Shown here piece by piece: positions 45,796 to 50,664 of a stretch of 64,000 nucleotides of DNA. Location of the stretch: positions 186,001 to 250,000 of the forward strand of contig JAOUMY010000002.1 in NCBI GenBank assembly GCA_029881255.1, written 5' to 3'. The notes under the pieces are model-generated. The model was not told the DNA's origin and made no database searches. It saw nothing but the letters and a program-made list of their open reading frames with translations. The translations under genes were made by a program, and so were the position numbers. This stretch comes from Gammaproteobacteria bacterium (GTDB taxonomy: Bacteria > Pseudomonadota > Gammaproteobacteria > S012-40). Every line of letters begins with the position of its first letter. The first letter of the stretch is position 1.

Positions 45796-47061
45796 TCAAA
45801 TGACGGTCAGGGAAAGTTCGCGTCCGTTATTGATGATGATTTTGGCCGTCCCAGTGGTCCCCGCGACCTCGATGACCAAGGTGTTCTTGTCTTTGGCACT
45901 GACATTGAGTTGCATGTTCGCCGGTCGCATAGAAGAGATGTTGTCGATGACGTCGTTTGCATTTGAAGGAATCAGATAAAGATAAGTCACCTTGCCCCGC
46001 TCCACTTTCACTGTATCCTGATTTGAGGAAAGACGAACAATATTCCCCTGAAGACTCCGTGTACGGAAGACCCAGTCCATACTTCCGGCGATACCATCGG
46101 CAATGTATTCCAGTTCAACTCGATATCGACGATTCCACTCCAGTCTTTGCAGTGGGAACAGCGCAAATTCATGACTACTTAACAACTTATTCGGATCGTT
46201 GTTCGTGTCCAGCTGCAGAGTGGATTCAATATAGACATCATCCACCAGATCATACAAACGAAACGCCGTCACGCTCACACTAGCGTAAGCCACGCGATTG
46301 AACTGCACAGTTACGGGATATCCGGAAACCGAATGTTCTGGCAATGGATCCGGGTCCTCTTCATAGAACACGGGAGGGATATCAAACGCGTTCTCCGCTG
46401 GCCACACCACAATGCTATTGTTTTTTTGTCGCGTTGAGACTACTGCCTGCATCACTTCGGCACTATCTATTGTTGCGCCGCTCGCACAATAGCCTTCAAA
46501 GGATACTCGATGTTCCTCGGTAGTTTTGCACAGCGTATTGATTTTCGAATTCCCCATATTGTGCACTACCAGGGTTTTATTTTTTCTCAGCTCGCTGCTA
46601 CTGATGCCTATACTGTCTAGATCAAGATTGAATAGATTCAAACGATGATAGATTGCGCTCATTAGGTTATCCACGGCAATCATGTCGCCGTCCCCTGTCG
46701 CTATCCCCTCAAAAACAAAGCGTGTGCTATACCCCGCCGCCAAAGCTCTCGCGCTGGCATTTTCACCGGTATATTCATCGAGTGCAGCGTCTTCTTCATG
46801 ACTGTAGCGACTATTGTTTTTCAAATAGCGCAAATGATTCTCGGCCGCCGTTTGCAAATTATCATTCTTGTTCAAAGCACTCAGACCGGCGGATTGGCGC
46901 AGATGGTTGATATATTCGTAGAGATCGCTAAACACTACGTAGTCTTCTTCCACCGTTTTTGTCGCAACGAAAGGCAGCATTCCATCAGATCGTGCGACAC
47001 CGCAGGAATTGAGCGTAAAAACTGATAACAGAAAGAAAGCGACGATTGTCGTTCTATACAT
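45796..47061 (-). CDS. CAP-domain (SCP-like) lipoprotein
   Basis: The 421-residue protein begins with a lipoprotein signal (FFLLSVFTLNSC, Cys20). Residues about 45-170 form a CAP/SCP-like domain with YINHLRQSAGLSALNKNDNLQTAA, HEEDAALDEYTGENASA and a MSAIYHRLNLFNL segment, the usual bacterial form with His and Glu pocket residues. The C-terminal half (about 225-420) is beta-rich, with an Ig-like/BIG-type module and a terminal strand domain (AKIIINNGRELSLTVI). Bacterial CAP proteins have mostly unknown roles at the surface. It is 16 nt upstream of the sulfotransferase gene. Confidence 0.8.
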   Translation of the reverse strand: MYRTTIVAFFLLSVFTLNSCGVARSDGMLPFVATKTVEEDYVVFSDLYEYINHLRQSAGLSALNKNDNLQTAAENHLRYLKNNSRYSHEEDAALDEYTGENASARALAAGYSTRFVFEGIATGDGDMIAVDNLMSAIYHRLNLFNLDLDSIGISSSELRKNKTLVVHNMGNSKINTLCKTTEEHRVSFEGYCASGATIDSAEVMQAVVSTRQKNNSIVVWPAENAFDIPPVFYEEDPDPLPEHSVSGYPVTVQFNRVAYASVSVTAFRLYDLVDDVYIESTLQLDTNNDPNKLLSSHEFALFPLQRLEWNRRYRVELEYIADGIAGSMDWVFRTRSLQGNIVRLSSNQDTVKVERGKVTYLYLIPSNANDVIDNISSMRPANMQLNVSAKDKNTLVIEVAGTTGTAKIIINNGRELSLTVI

Positions 47062-47236
47062 GAGACTCCCAGAATCGTTCTTGTTTTAACTACAGTTCAA
47101 CGATGAGTTTGTCTTTTTACGCGACAGGCATTAATCCTGACTTATCGGGAATAGCGTGAAGAGAGCATTAGAAAAAGAGAAGATGGTGCCCGGGGCCGGA
47201 GTCGAACCGGCACGGATTATTCATCCGAGGGATTTT

Positions 47237-47921
47237 CTTACCCGCTACAGCTTTCGCTGCTCTATCTATATTAGATAGATTTGTGGTCTGGACTTTCTCT
47301 TTGCCGTGTTATATTGCTACAACTTAGGCAGGAGCCGTCAAGTCTCTACACTTTTCCTGAACAAAATGAAACTATACAAATATTCAGAGAAAGATCTCAG
47401 AGAAGCGGTAAGAAATTCGACTTCTATGAGACAAACCCTAGATAAACTTTGCGTTTCACCTTTTGGTGGCAACTACGATGTATTGCGAAAAGCGCTATAT
47501 CACTTCGCGATCGATACATCTCATTTTCGCGGTCAAGCATGGAAAAAAGGCAAGTCACTGCCTCCAAAAACGTCCACAGAGGACTACCTTTCTAACAAAC
47601 TTCCAATTCAATCATACAAACTAAAAAGGCGCTTGATAAAAGAAGGGTACTTTCAGCATTTGTGTTCAAAATGTGGGAACACCAAATGGCTAAACGAACC
47701 AATTCCTCTCGAACTCGACCACGTCAATGGGGACAAAAAAGACAACAGATTAGAGAATCTTCGACTTCTTTGTCCAAATTGCCACGCTTTTACACCGACG
47801 TATCGGAGTAAAAACCGGTCCAGGACTTAGCTCGGGATTGCCACCACCACTACGTGCTGAGGTTTCCCCGAATTTGACTCCATTCACGCCAGGTGTTTCC
47901 AGCCTGGGTGCTCAAAAGTTT
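47237..47921 (-). mobile_element. Group I intron in tRNA-Leu(UAA), 685 nt
   Basis: Exact exon borders follow from the tRNA fold. The 5' splice site is ...GGGACTT|AAAC with the last exon U able to form the conserved U-G pair in P1 (CTT with GAG of TTTTGAGC). The intron ends in G before AAAATCCC. Core elements read leftward: a P2 hairpin near 47886-47912, the P element TTCGGGGAAACC (47861-47872), the Q element GGCAATCCCGAGCTAAGTCC (47823-47842), R element GTGTAGAGACTTGACGG (47335-47351) and S element AAAGTCCAG. GACTT/AAGTC form P7. P9 (TCTATCTA/TAGATAGA, 47261-47279) and a GAAA-tetraloop hairpin follow. The core resembles cyanobacterial tRNA-Leu introns. An HNH gene fills the P6 region on the opposite strand. 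Confidence 0.93.
47366..47830 (+). CDS. HNH homing endonuclease, antisense within the group I intron
   Basis: The 154-residue protein (start at MKLYKYSEKDLREAV; a GTG 20 codons upstream would run through the intron core) has an N-terminal DNA-binding type segment with FGGNYDVLRKAL and IDTSHFRG. A zinc-supported HNH nuclease follows: Cys100 and Cys103, LELDHVNGD with catalytic His119, DNRLENLRLLC, Cys136, Cys139 and His140. It should cut intronless tRNA-Leu genes and promote intron homing. The gene is AT-rich compared with its neighbours and has no Shine-Dalgarno sequence. It is read on the strand opposite to the tRNA and intron, and its stop codon overlaps the intron Q element. Expression therefore needs a separate promoter. 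Confidence 0.88.
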   Translation: MKLYKYSEKDLREAVRNSTSMRQTLDKLCVSPFGGNYDVLRKALYHFAIDTSHFRGQAWKKGKSLPPKTSTEDYLSNKLPIQSYKLKRRLIKEGYFQHLCSKCGNTKWLNEPIPLELDHVNGDKKDNRLENLRLLCPNCHAFTPTYRSKNRSRT

Positions 47922-48060
47922 AAGTCCCTTGCGTCTACCAATTTCGCCACCCGGGCCACGGGAAAGCGGCCGCCATTATAACCACTTCAACTTCTTATTG
48001 GAAATGATTGTACGAAGGGATTCGCAATTGAAAAAAACATAAAAAAAGGAAAAAAGAAGA

Positions 48061-48134
48061 TGGAGGCTGAGCCCGGAATCGAACCGGGGTACAAGGCTTT
48101 GCAGGCCTCTGCATGACCACTCTGCCACCCAGCC
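48061..48134 (-). tRNA. cysT: tRNA-Cys(GCA)
   Basis: A 74-nt gene with encoded CCA: acceptor GGCTGGG/CTCAGCC, anticodon loop CTGCAAA (anticodon GCA at 48100-48102), T-arm CCCGG TTCGATT CCGGG, discriminator U. Second gene of the Gly-Cys-Leu operon. No interruption. Confidence 0.95.
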
Positions 48135-48256
48135 ATCAAAGAGTGTGGAAGTATAACGTGAGACCGTGGTGATGTCTCCCTATACGGCCTTTGCAAGGCC
48201 CCACAATTCACTACGCTAAAATCAAAAAACCCCGGCAAGCACCGAGGTTTTGAATT

Positions 48257-48332
<76 letters not shown>

Positions 48333-48347
48333 GTCAAGCGAGGACGT

Positions 48348-48375
48348 ATTGTACCTTCAAAACACTCCTTGTCAA
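48348..48375 (-). promoter_or_regulatory. Strong sigma-70 promoter of the tRNA operon
   Basis: Read leftward: TTGACA (-35, 48370-48375), a 16-nt spacer and TACAAT (-10, 48348-48353), then the GC-rich discriminator ACGTCCTCGC before tRNA-Gly. Such a discriminator is typical of stringently controlled stable-RNA promoters. A CCTTGTC/GACAAGG inverted repeat surrounds the -35. Confidence 0.8.
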
Positions 48376-48610
48376 GCCGGTGGACAAGGAATTTCCTTCA
48401 CATATTTTCTCAGCCCAAAGGTAGCGATTTCAGTCGGTTAGCGGCTGGTTTTCGCTCACTATTTGCGCCTGAGCAGGCATTTTTCAGTGCAAAATAATTA
48501 AGTGCTCTATAAGATGCTTCGGGGATAATTCAAGCACTTAACCCAGCCCCCGACCATGTGGACAACAGAATCCACAGCGCGGGAACACTGGCAAGCGTGT
48601 TGGAACAGGG

Positions 48611-49075
48611 GTGAGAAAAGTGAAAAAAACATCCGGGAAAAAACCCGGCTTCAGTTTGGTTGAGCTACTTGCGGTTATTACCATCGCCGGTATTCTTGCC
48701 TCATTCGCCATTCCAGCCTATTACAGTTTTTTGCAACGCGGGTATGTGGCCGATGCCACCTCTAGCCTGACGCGCCTGGCCAACCAGCTGGAATCCAGTT
48801 TTCTCGACAGCCGCAATTATGCCAACGCACAAGGTCAATGCGCGGTTCCCACCGATGACACCAGTGATTATTTCGATATTCAGTGCGCTATCACCGGTCA
48901 AGGTTTGAACCAGTATTTATTGAGCGCGACCACCACCGCTCGTTTTGACCAGGAAAAGACCTACGTCTATAGCCTGGACAATAACGGTCGCCGCCAGACA
49001 CGGGTATTTATCAATAATAGTGAAACTGCCCACCATGAATGTTGGCTGGTGAGCAACAACGGGGCATGTATTTGA
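48611..49075 (+). CDS. Type IV pilin-like protein (cluster 1)
   Basis: The 154-residue protein has a class III (prepilin) signal: a short basic leader ending in Gly (GKKPG) before FSLVELLAVITIAGILASFA, with Glu at +5 of the mature protein. The C-terminal part has two Cys pairs, of which the last (ECWLVSNNGACI) resembles the D-region disulfide of PilE/PilA-type pilins. The GTG at 48611 is given; a second GTG at 48620 with AGGGG 8 nt upstream is equally good. It opens a six-gene set with overlapping reading frames. Its role may be a minor or accessory pilin. Confidence 0.85.
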   Translation: MRKVKKTSGKKPGFSLVELLAVITIAGILASFAIPAYYSFLQRGYVADATSSLTRLANQLESSFLDSRNYANAQGQCAVPTDDTSDYFDIQCAITGQGLNQYLLSATTTARFDQEKTYVYSLDNNGRRQTRVFINNSETAHHECWLVSNNGACI

Positions 49076-49557
49076 TGAGCGCTCGACACAATCAAAGTGG
49101 CTCGTTGATGATCGAATTAGTCATCGTAATGACGATCGTGGTGATACTGGGCAGTGTTGCCATGCCGGATCTACATCGGTTTCTGGTGCGTCGTGACATA
49201 GACAATACACGCTCGATGCTGATTCAGTCCCTGCACTATGCGAAACAGATGGCGCGTGCGGAAAACACCCTGGTCGATGTTCAGGTGGGAAGCAATCGTC
49301 TGACGATCAAGCCACGCAATACAGCACGCGAGATTTCCCGTCAGTTTTCGCAACGCATCAATCTCGTTAGTGCCAATAATACAGTTGGTCTCAGTTTTGT
49401 TTTTCGCCCGATGGGTACGCTGGCCCGCGAAGATGATGACCTGGTCATCGATGCCGACGCGGATTTATTGATTAAGATTCTTCCTCAGGATACCCGTCTG
49501 ACCGGTATCGAAGACAGTGTGGTAATCGGAAATTATGGCAGTCTCGCATCCCGTTAA
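49075..49557 (+). CDS. FimT/GspH-type minor pilin (cluster 1)
   Basis: The ATG overlaps the previous stop (TGATG), giving 160 residues. The prepilin leader is weak: SARHNQSGS|LMIELVIVMTIVVILGSVA has Ser at the +1 side where Phe or Met is usual, but Glu at +5 is kept. The rest follows the GspH/FimT pattern (helix, then RSMLIQSLHYAKQMARAENT). Members start pilus or pseudopilus assembly in the inner membrane. The 3' end overlaps the PilV-type gene by 23 nt. Confidence 0.82.
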   Translation: MSARHNQSGSLMIELVIVMTIVVILGSVAMPDLHRFLVRRDIDNTRSMLIQSLHYAKQMARAENTLVDVQVGSNRLTIKPRNTAREISRQFSQRINLVSANNTVGLSFVFRPMGTLAREDDDLVIDADADLLIKILPQDTRLTGIEDSVVIGNYGSLASR

Positions 49558-49966
49558 TACACAATCAGGATTCACTCTGATCGAAACGCTGGTAGCAATC
49601 ACCGTGCTGACTGTTGGCATGCTCTCGATCTCCATGAATCTCACCCTTGGCCTCAAATCCCGCATCGATACGGAAATCCATTCCGAGGCGATGCAGGTGA
49701 CAGCGCAATATGTGGAACCACTGAGTATCGCAGCAGGATCAGACCTCGAACGTTTTCGTGACTTGATTATGTCGCTCAACACCGTGCCTGCACAGTCGCG
49801 CTATCAGGTATCGATCAATTCAGTCCATGACGCGAAGCAAGTTGATTTGCGTGATGCACCCAGCGGATCCTGGGAACCGCCGTTCACGCTGGTCATGAAC
49901 GTCGCCTATCGCGGCAAGAATAATCTCGCGCTAAACTTTCCCACAACGCATGTCTTCGTGCCATGA
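49535..49966 (+). CDS. PilV-type minor pilin (cluster 1)
   Basis: The 143-residue protein starts with leader MAVSHPVNTQSG, then FTLIETLVAITVLTVGMLSI, the canonical prepilin signal with Glu+5. The pattern LGLKSRIDTEIHSEAMQ after the helix is PilV-like. It overlaps the previous gene by 23 nt and the next (PilW-type) by 4 nt. PilV helps prime pilus assembly with FimU, PilW and PilX in Pseudomonas. Confidence 0.82.
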   Translation: MAVSHPVNTQSGFTLIETLVAITVLTVGMLSISMNLTLGLKSRIDTEIHSEAMQVTAQYVEPLSIAAGSDLERFRDLIMSLNTVPAQSRYQVSINSVHDAKQVDLRDAPSGSWEPPFTLVMNVAYRGKNNLALNFPTTHVFVP

Positions 49967-50664
49967 ACAAAATCACATCGCAACAAGGATTCAGCCTGGT
50001 CGAGATGATGATCGCTATAACCCTGGCGAGTCTAATCACCATCATGGCTTTGTCGATGTATTTCATACAGGACCGCAACATCGGCATCGAAGAAAAGCGC
50101 AGCGGTAATATCACGCTTAGCGAAACAAGTTATAGCTCGCTTAGTCGCTTATTGCGTCACGCCTTGAGCAATACCGTCACGATTAATTATGGCAATGGTC
50201 GGCTAAATACCGCCAATAATGACTCGCCAGAAATTAGCAGCGATGAAATGACCGTAGATTTTTCATTGCCGCCAAACTATCCCATCTGGCCAAATGATAA
50301 ACTTCCGTATGACAAACCATGGGTTCGACTGCATTGGTCAAACAGACCACAGGCCGATGCGCCGTACAGCATTACTATTGCTACCGCTGCCAACCCTGCG
50401 GATCTTGCGAATGCAACGCCCGGCAAACTCACACCTGATGAGGGTGAAAATCTGATCGCCAATCTGGACTTCTGGCCACTCGATGCAAACGGAAATGTTC
50501 AGGCCTCGCCCCAGGCCGCGGCCCCCGGTGGTTACCTTTTGTCTGTCACCTCACGCACCACGATACCGGATCAAAACTATCAGCATCCACGCCTGGCGCA
50601 GAACAATCCCCTGGCGCAATTTCGCACCCACTCCCTGCAGGGCGTGGTTTCGCCGAGGAATTAA
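49963..50664 (+). CDS. PilW-type minor pilin (cluster 1)
   Basis: The 233-residue protein has the prepilin signal QQG|FSLVEMMIAITLASLITIMA and the extended globular domain typical of PilW (SYSSLSRLLRHALSNTV). It overlaps PilV by 4 nt, and the PilX-type gene starts 3 nt later. It lacks the cysteine pairs seen in cluster 2 PilW, so the two are not recent copies. Confidence 0.82.
   Translation: MNKITSQQGFSLVEMMIAITLASLITIMALSMYFIQDRNIGIEEKRSGNITLSETSYSSLSRLLRHALSNTVTINYGNGRLNTANNDSPEISSDEMTVDFSLPPNYPIWPNDKLPYDKPWVRLHWSNRPQADAPYSITIATAANPADLANATPGKLTPDEGENLIANLDFWPLDANGNVQASPQAAAPGGYLLSVTSRTTIPDQNYQHPRLAQNNPLAQFRTHSLQGVVSPRN

Follow-up and report, generated by a model that had tools for sequence, protein, structure and literature searches.

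The tRNA-Leu(UAA) gene of this gammaproteobacterium is interrupted by a group I intron, and the locus raises the question of whether this intron is a static resident of its host or an element that still moves. Based on comparisons with bacterial and phage relatives, we favor, with a probability of roughly 0.8, a group I intron of the tRNA-Leu(UAA) type that is mobile, linked to phages, and equipped with an antisense homing endonuclease gene. The intron looks mobile and phage-linked because its intact antisense HNH gene has phage relatives that lie mostly next to leucine tRNA genes; this gene had been overlooked, and it turns a static intron into a probably mobile one. Coordinates (Table 1) refer to the window, i.e., the whole 64,000-nt stretch of DNA that was analyzed.

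Table 1 Features of the split tRNA-Leu(UAA) gene, its intron, and the surrounding tRNA operon (window positions).
Feature	Position	Strand	Basis
tRNA-Leu(UAA) 3' exon, CCA included	47184..47236	-	ARAGORN intron mode
Group I intron, 685 nt, terminal G	47237..47921	-	ARAGORN, covariation, own model R1
P7 3' strand AAGUC, at S element start	47291..47295	-	Sequence reading, covariation
P3 3' strand GGCUCC	47331..47336	-	Sequence reading, covariation
R element / P7 5' strand, GUGUAGAGACU	47341..47351	-	Sequence reading, covariation (3' half)
HNH endonuclease ORF, 154 aa + stop, antisense to tRNA and ribozyme, P6 position	47366..47830	+	Pfam, PHROG, homologues, selection
P element / 3' strand of P4, AATCCCGAGCTAAG	47826..47839	-	Sequence reading
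P3 5' strand GGAGUC	47876..47881	-	Sequence reading, covariation
tRNA-Leu(UAA) 5' exon, last nt U34	47922..47956	-	ARAGORN intron mode, sequence reading
tRNA-Cys(GCA), same operon as tRNA-Leu(UAA)	48061..48134	-	ARAGORN
tRNA-Gly(GCC), same operon as tRNA-Leu(UAA)	48257..48332	-	ARAGORN
Sigma-70-like promoter TTGACA-16-TACAAT, upstream of Gly-Cys-Leu operon	48348..48375	-	Consensus match only

The split gene was called by ARAGORN in intron mode as tRNA-Leu(taa) at 47956..47184 (minus strand), with a 685-nt intron at the junction gactt-intron-aaaat (i.e., U34|A35) and spliced exons that form a normal tRNA of 88 nt; without intron mode, the program did not report it. The initial annotation had claimed that the exons rebuild a complete tRNA-Leu(UAA), that the insert sits exactly between U34 and A35, and that the gene belongs to a gly-cys-leu tRNA operon; all three claims are borne out, the last by tRNA-Gly(GCC) and tRNA-Cys(GCA) preceding tRNA-Leu(UAA). 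It had also proposed a search for a second tRNA-Leu(UAA), which was run on the 44 contigs of the genome assembly (99.45% complete) and found none; of the 230 candidates, 150 were scored, and 32 tRNAs exceeded the cut-off. The remaining leucine tRNAs all carry the anticodons UAG, CAA, CAG, or GAG, so that a second intact copy in the searched assembly was rejected, and a copy could lie in an assembly gap because the genome is divided into 44 contigs. Judging from its sequence, the intron is real and looks essential for the host. Near the operon, positions 48611-50664 (plus strand) hold several short ORFs with pilin-like leaders (GFSLVE, GFTLIE), which, by reading, are probably a minor type IV pilin cluster.

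To analyze the ribozyme core, the window intron was aligned with 17 related chromosomal and five phage introns (23 rows; L084 was left out). Predicted partners pair in 136 of 138 cells in P3, 137 of 138 in P4, and 115 of 115 in P7, and only 20–110 cells pair when one partner is slid by 1–2 positions. P3 shows compensatory change, being GGAGUC/GGCUCC in the window and CUCCUC/GGGGAG in the phage locus L070. Over the 3' half of the intron, 96.2% of cells pair (33–41% when slid), with two-sided changes in 27 of 42 pairs. The terminal G was read from the sequence and from ARAGORN, and P1 with its U34-G pair was drawn by hand. Reading and covariation of the 23 introns thus uphold the U-G splice pair, terminal G, and group I core of the initial annotation.

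The covariance-model check proposed with that annotation yielded matches only by way of relatives and a model of our own. The gathering score of RF00028 was passed by four of eight related loci (L060, L070, L095, and L105, all ORF-less) and missed by L077 and L097 (ORF-less) and by L042 and L085 (ORF-bearing), and our own model R1, which was built on the intron 3' half with the window among its rows, gave 177.6 bits on 47184-47354. The window intron itself was not matched by Rfam at E<=0.1 over 46000-49500, and its 3' part had no match even at E<=10, presumably because the ORF splits the core; a NiCo match in the window (E 0.035) was under its gathering score. The group I class is secure through comparison with the relatives, even though the window alone fails Rfam. 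The putative subgroup is IC3.

The HNH ORF of the window has a longer in-frame GTG start at 47306, which would give 174 codons, and its TAG stop codon (47828-47830, plus strand) lies within the ribozyme P element. The protein matches the Pfam families HNH_3 (27.1 bits; cut-off 24.8) and HNH (22.7 bits; cut-off 21.4) and phrog_10822 (E 5.8e-49), and a PDB sequence search returned no match. Residues H119, N138, and H140 and four cysteines are invariant across 37 sequences of the HNH family. The AlphaFold model (mean pLDDT 89.1, pTM 0.55) predicts a helical N-terminal domain and a C-terminal Zn/HNH-like domain. Matches of the model to solved structures are weak: the best Foldseek hit was EcoKMcrA (E 0.062; none at E<=0.001), and structure comparison reached a best Z of 5.5 on the C-terminal part, with HNH nucleases at 4–5. 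These weak matches include HNH nucleases for residues ~78–154 and helix-turn-helix proteins for residues ~1–53, and no solved homing endonuclease of this kind was found among the 50 PDB rows listed.

A homologue scan of genomes from 84,980 species, with three HNH proteins as query, identified 21 loci. The HNH gene lies antisense inside a tRNA-Leu(UAA) intron in 16 of them (ARAGORN intron mode); in L046, with an antisense HNH gene in its intron, the tRNA was called Phe through a shifted anticodon. One locus (L060) has the HNH gene beside an ORF-less intron, and four actinobacterial loci have it beside a short tRNA-Leu (UAA called in L063, UAG in the three others). The chromosomes of L063-L066 are from Janibacter, Pseudonocardia, and Nocardioides; the HNH gene abuts or is near tRNA-Leu, and in the first three its stop codon falls at the edge of the short tRNA-like gene. 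The locus L051, titled as a Klebsiella pneumoniae metagenome-assembled genome, shares its marine-type intron and HNH gene with uncultured gammaproteobacteria, and its title may be wrong.

A scan of IMG/VR with the HNH family alignment provided 27 viral loci. ARAGORN found tRNA-Leu at most 200 nt from, or around, the HNH gene in 22 of these (24 when L070 and L071 are read by hand as tRNA-Leu(UAA); the tRNA of L093 was left uncounted), compared to 0 of 28 loci in the single, unrelated control HNH family, the relatives of T4 MobE. By reading, eight viral loci have an intron-bearing tRNA-Leu(UAA): the HNH gene lies beside it in L070, L071, L074, L077, L078, and L084, and inside the intron, in sense orientation, in L085 and L088. 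L093 is a possible ninth, its HNH gene lying in the P1 region. Three loci (L067, L069, and L072) have the same surroundings as L070, yet their tRNA-Leu(UAA) is intronless. Phage members of the family lie beside an intact tRNA-Leu, beside a tRNA-Leu(UAA) whose intron is related but lacks an ORF, or, in sense orientation, within such an intron. Among isolate phages, 210 records had an HNH match and 10 of these were examined. The HNH gene overlaps or is at most 25 nt from a tRNA-Leu in six (Cronus, mistaenkt, S-CRM01, Atu_ph07, GodonK, and phiPsa347), where ARAGORN called the anticodon not as UAA, being UAG in five and CAA in one, and it is not next to tRNA-Leu in the other four (Dorin, LCK69, EGole, and LR756511). 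More distant HNH members thus drift to other tRNAs or to none.

Two viral loci have unusual structures. The sense intronic HNH gene of L088 (2501-2971) has TAG three times in frame, and its tRNA array includes a tRNA with a CTA anticodon (ARAGORN), so that this phage probably recodes TAG. In L087 (2301-2950), the anticodon of a tRNA-Leu is seemingly interrupted by an insert containing a complete tRNA-Leu(UAA) and an HNH gene, with no evident intron core, which is perhaps a self-rescuing insertion.

The sequence around the intron insertion site was compared between genes with and without a neighboring HNH gene. Of the 11 distinct uninterrupted tRNA-Leu(UAA) genes that neighbor HNH, one has the motif GACTTAAAATC. 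Among distinct tRNA-Leu(UAA) genes of phages with no HNH nearby, 111 of 130 have it, among the matches listed (Fisher p 3e-7 for the comparison, a value that ignores relatedness and uses controls chosen by tRNA-like patterns). These controls came from two scans, again among the matches listed (120 stretches and 80 loci), with 63 of the 80 loci used from the second scan and 17 shared. The sole motif-bearing exception (L089/L090) has its UAA gene 146 nt from an HNH match, and the main HNH gene there abuts tRNA-Leu(UAG). Altered insertion sites were found beside phage HNH genes in L067, L072, L075, L076, and L080. When the exons are joined, GACTTAAAATC is restored in all 26 chromosomal intron carriers described below (3 read by hand) and, among six distinct phage introns, in all but L084. 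Such scarcity of the motif beside HNH is what cleavage of the insertion site by the enzyme would predict.

These data bear on the possibility that the HNH protein is a weapon of competition or exclusion, like the free-standing SegB and MobE enzymes, which has entered the intron opportunistically and does not move it. Most viral loci indeed have the HNH gene outside any intron, and its position beside tRNA-Leu(UAG), tRNA-Leu(CAA), or no tRNA-Leu in some named phages would fit such a role. This explanation is nevertheless unlikely, given that, in bacteria as well as phages, the HNH gene recurs within or next to an intron at this same site, and that the insertion-site motif is changed in intronless HNH carriers.

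Phylogenetic trees were used to compare the arrangements of intron and endonuclease. The protein tree was built without L065, L071, L078, L079, L090, and L091 (near-copies or partial sequences), and the intron tree without L115, L116, L120, and L121 (missed by the pattern) and without L094, L096, L098, L100, and L101 (copies of included rows); alignments A2 and A3 exclude L084, and A4 excludes L073, L084, L087, L088, L092, and near-copies. L060, with HNH beside the intron, is sister to L058, with HNH antisense inside it, in the protein tree (support 100/98), and their introns are also sisters (100/99). Among phages, the HNH sequences of L070 (intron) and L072 (intronless) are identical over the aligned columns, and those of L076 and L077 (intronless and intron-bearing tRNA-Leu, respectively) are nearly identical. 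ORF-bearing and ORF-less introns are interleaved in the intron tree (e.g., L062 with L103 and L106). The antisense copies do not form one clade in the protein tree, which has three changes, two of them forced by the starred branches, with many forks poorly supported.

To determine how widely the intron occurs in chromosomes, 369 gammaproteobacterial genomes were searched with R1 and the loci were then read. Strong matches stand well above those to ordinary tRNAs, and a clear intron at U34|A35 of tRNA-Leu(UAA) was found in at least 26 of the 369 genomes (23 by ARAGORN call and three by hand: L102, L111, and L113); L108 (at a contig edge) and L119 (with another junction) were not counted. This number is a lower bound because the filters lose weak matches. 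Within the GTDB family of the window, only its own genome among 13 has an intron-bearing R1 score (177.6 bits; next 48.1), and in a phylum-wide sample of 200 genomes the HNH gene was found in its own genome only. The initial annotation had suggested either lateral arrival or an unusually wide distribution; the 26 carriers support an unusually wide distribution, and lateral arrival of the intron in this host is plausible. An intact antisense HNH gene is present in five of the 26 carriers, a broken one, likewise inside the intron, in another (L102), and none in the other 20, whose introns measure 210–372 nt. At L158, a C-terminal HNH remnant with stops lies beside an intact tRNA-Leu(UAA) that bears GACTTAAAATC, and L102 and L158 would represent stages of decay. 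At L131 (1100-1560, minus strand), the terminal part (3' end) of a group I intron and an additional 3' exon come after an intact tRNA-Leu(UAA), and it looks as if an intronless gene had replaced an intron-bearing one.

The weaker R1 matches include introns in tRNA-Arg(UCU), tRNA-Arg(CCU), and other tRNA genes. Gammaproteobacterial tRNA-Arg(UCU) introns carry a sense PDDEXK_5 endonuclease gene in L135 (549-965) and L147 (1296-1703), and L150 has a fragment of such a gene. We take these Pfam PDDEXK_5 enzymes of L135 and L147 to be PD-(D/E)XK endonucleases of the I-SspI type. Like the window intron, the group I introns of L135 and L147 interrupt a tRNA anticodon and harbor an endonuclease gene; they differ from it in tRNA (Arg(UCU) vs. 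Leu(UAA)), in orientation (sense vs. antisense), and in nuclease fold.

Selection on the antisense frame was studied in 17 distinct copies, comprising the 16 loci, the window, and two relatives, minus the duplicates L048 and L050 (introns identical to those of L042 and L043). All 17 antisense ORFs lack an internal stop and end in TAG inside the P element, and the five other frames hold at least two stops each in every copy. Differences at codon positions 1/2/3 are 0.29/0.19/0.60, and median dN/dS is 0.11 (0.08–0.14; restricted to pairs whose dS is unsaturated, 13 of 136). The antisense HNH frame is, on these sequence data, under purifying selection. A chance ORF was rejected on the grounds that all 17 distinct copies keep the frame open and conserved. 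The ORF replaces the P6 region, which is 13–170 nt long in ORF-less introns. The T in GAGCTAAG was considered as an adaptation for the endonuclease stop codon and rejected, because it is also present in most ORF-less chromosomal introns.

Alternatively, the intron may be a fixed resident, inherited vertically or rarely transferred, with the antisense ORF as a passenger that died recently or is not expressed, and that has ceased to drive movement. The absence or breakage of the family HNH gene in 21 of the 26 chromosomal introns (20 and one, respectively) would agree with this, as would upstream signals: a promoter scan found no plus-strand promoter-like site upstream of the endonuclease gene, and a Shine-Dalgarno-like site (AGGA/GGAG type, 6–8 nt before the start) precedes six of the 17 antisense ORFs and is absent from that of the window. 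We consider such a passenger quite improbable in view of the frame that stays open in every distinct copy, its dN/dS near 0.11, and the stops in all other frames. Host or element regulation, in which an antisense transcript would base-pair with the intron to adjust tRNA-Leu(UAA) splicing and nuclease activity would be secondary, would suit the complete opposite-strand overlap in all 17 copies and is highly improbable, considering that the protein is what selection acts on and that non-intronic relatives keep it without such overlap.

For the mobile, phage-linked intron that we favor, the promoter of the tRNA operon would produce a pre-tRNA from which the ribozyme would splice itself out, giving the cell its only UUA-reading tRNA. 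The HNH protein would be made from a separate plus-strand transcript and would cut intron-free tRNA-Leu(UAA) DNA at or near the anticodon, with the GGGACTTAAAATCCC site as candidate target; repair from the intron-bearing copy would then insert intron and endonuclease together. Genomes that keep the enzyme would escape cutting in one of two ways, either with the intron interrupting the site or with a changed anticodon arm of tRNA-Leu. The likely vehicle would be phages in which a tRNA-Leu gene contains or adjoins the gene for this endonuclease, and we infer phage-to-host transfer from the shared HNH family only.

Cyanobacterial and plastid tRNA-Leu(UAA) genes contain group I introns in the same gene and at the same U34|A35 position, and the cyanobacterial core sequences are probably similar to that of the gammaproteobacterial intron. 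Compared to these, the intron described here has a gammaproteobacterial host and an HNH gene antisense in the P6 position. Titles in the reference list of PMC3984707 cover the cyanobacterial and plastid introns. A putative group I intron interrupts tRNA-Leu-TAA in Thiomargarita nelsonii, and, after MacGregor 2013, also in Beggiatoa BOGUAY, according to PMC4853749, and a gammaproteobacterial tRNA-Leu(UAA) intron itself is thus already reported. The T. nelsonii interval of 353 bases is too short for the HNH ORF of the window, and both introns are described there without subgroup or structure. Antisense homing endonuclease genes, shown to be active, are described for group I introns of Didymium nuclear rDNA in PMC9548176. 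As in the window, ribozyme and endonuclease gene lie on opposite strands there; the setting differs in being eukaryotic rDNA, with a His-Cys enzyme in P9 and separate polymerases, compared to a bacterial tRNA gene with an HNH enzyme in P6. In collaborative homing, a free-standing endonuclease neighbors an intron that occupies its target (PMC10448857, citing Bonocora & Shub 2009 as well as Zeng et al. 2009), which resembles the endonuclease beside an ORF-less intron in L060, L070, L074, and L077; here, however, the target is a tRNA gene, and the family also has intronic members, both sense and antisense, and members in bacterial chromosomes. Our literature search (titles and abstract starts, mostly without subscription papers) returned no bacterial group I intron that encodes an endonuclease in antisense, no phage tRNA gene interrupted by a group I intron, and no tRNA-Leu-linked HNH family. 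As far as searched, the conserved antisense HNH gene, the tie of its family to tRNA-Leu, and the phage tRNA-Leu(UAA) introns are apparently new.

How a group I intron and an endonuclease unite into a mobile intron is a long-standing question, and in this system one endonuclease family and one intron family occur in several arrangements at a single site. The direction and rate of the step that brings the gene into the intron are therefore testable, using these arrangements and, in particular, the L058/L060 sister pair. Introns in phage tRNA genes had not been observed at the date of PMC3984707, according to that paper, and our results suggest phage tRNA genes as intron carriers. The locus also provides a bacterial example of an antisense endonuclease gene that overlaps an essential tRNA, an arrangement that may uncouple expression of the endonuclease from essential tRNA splicing.
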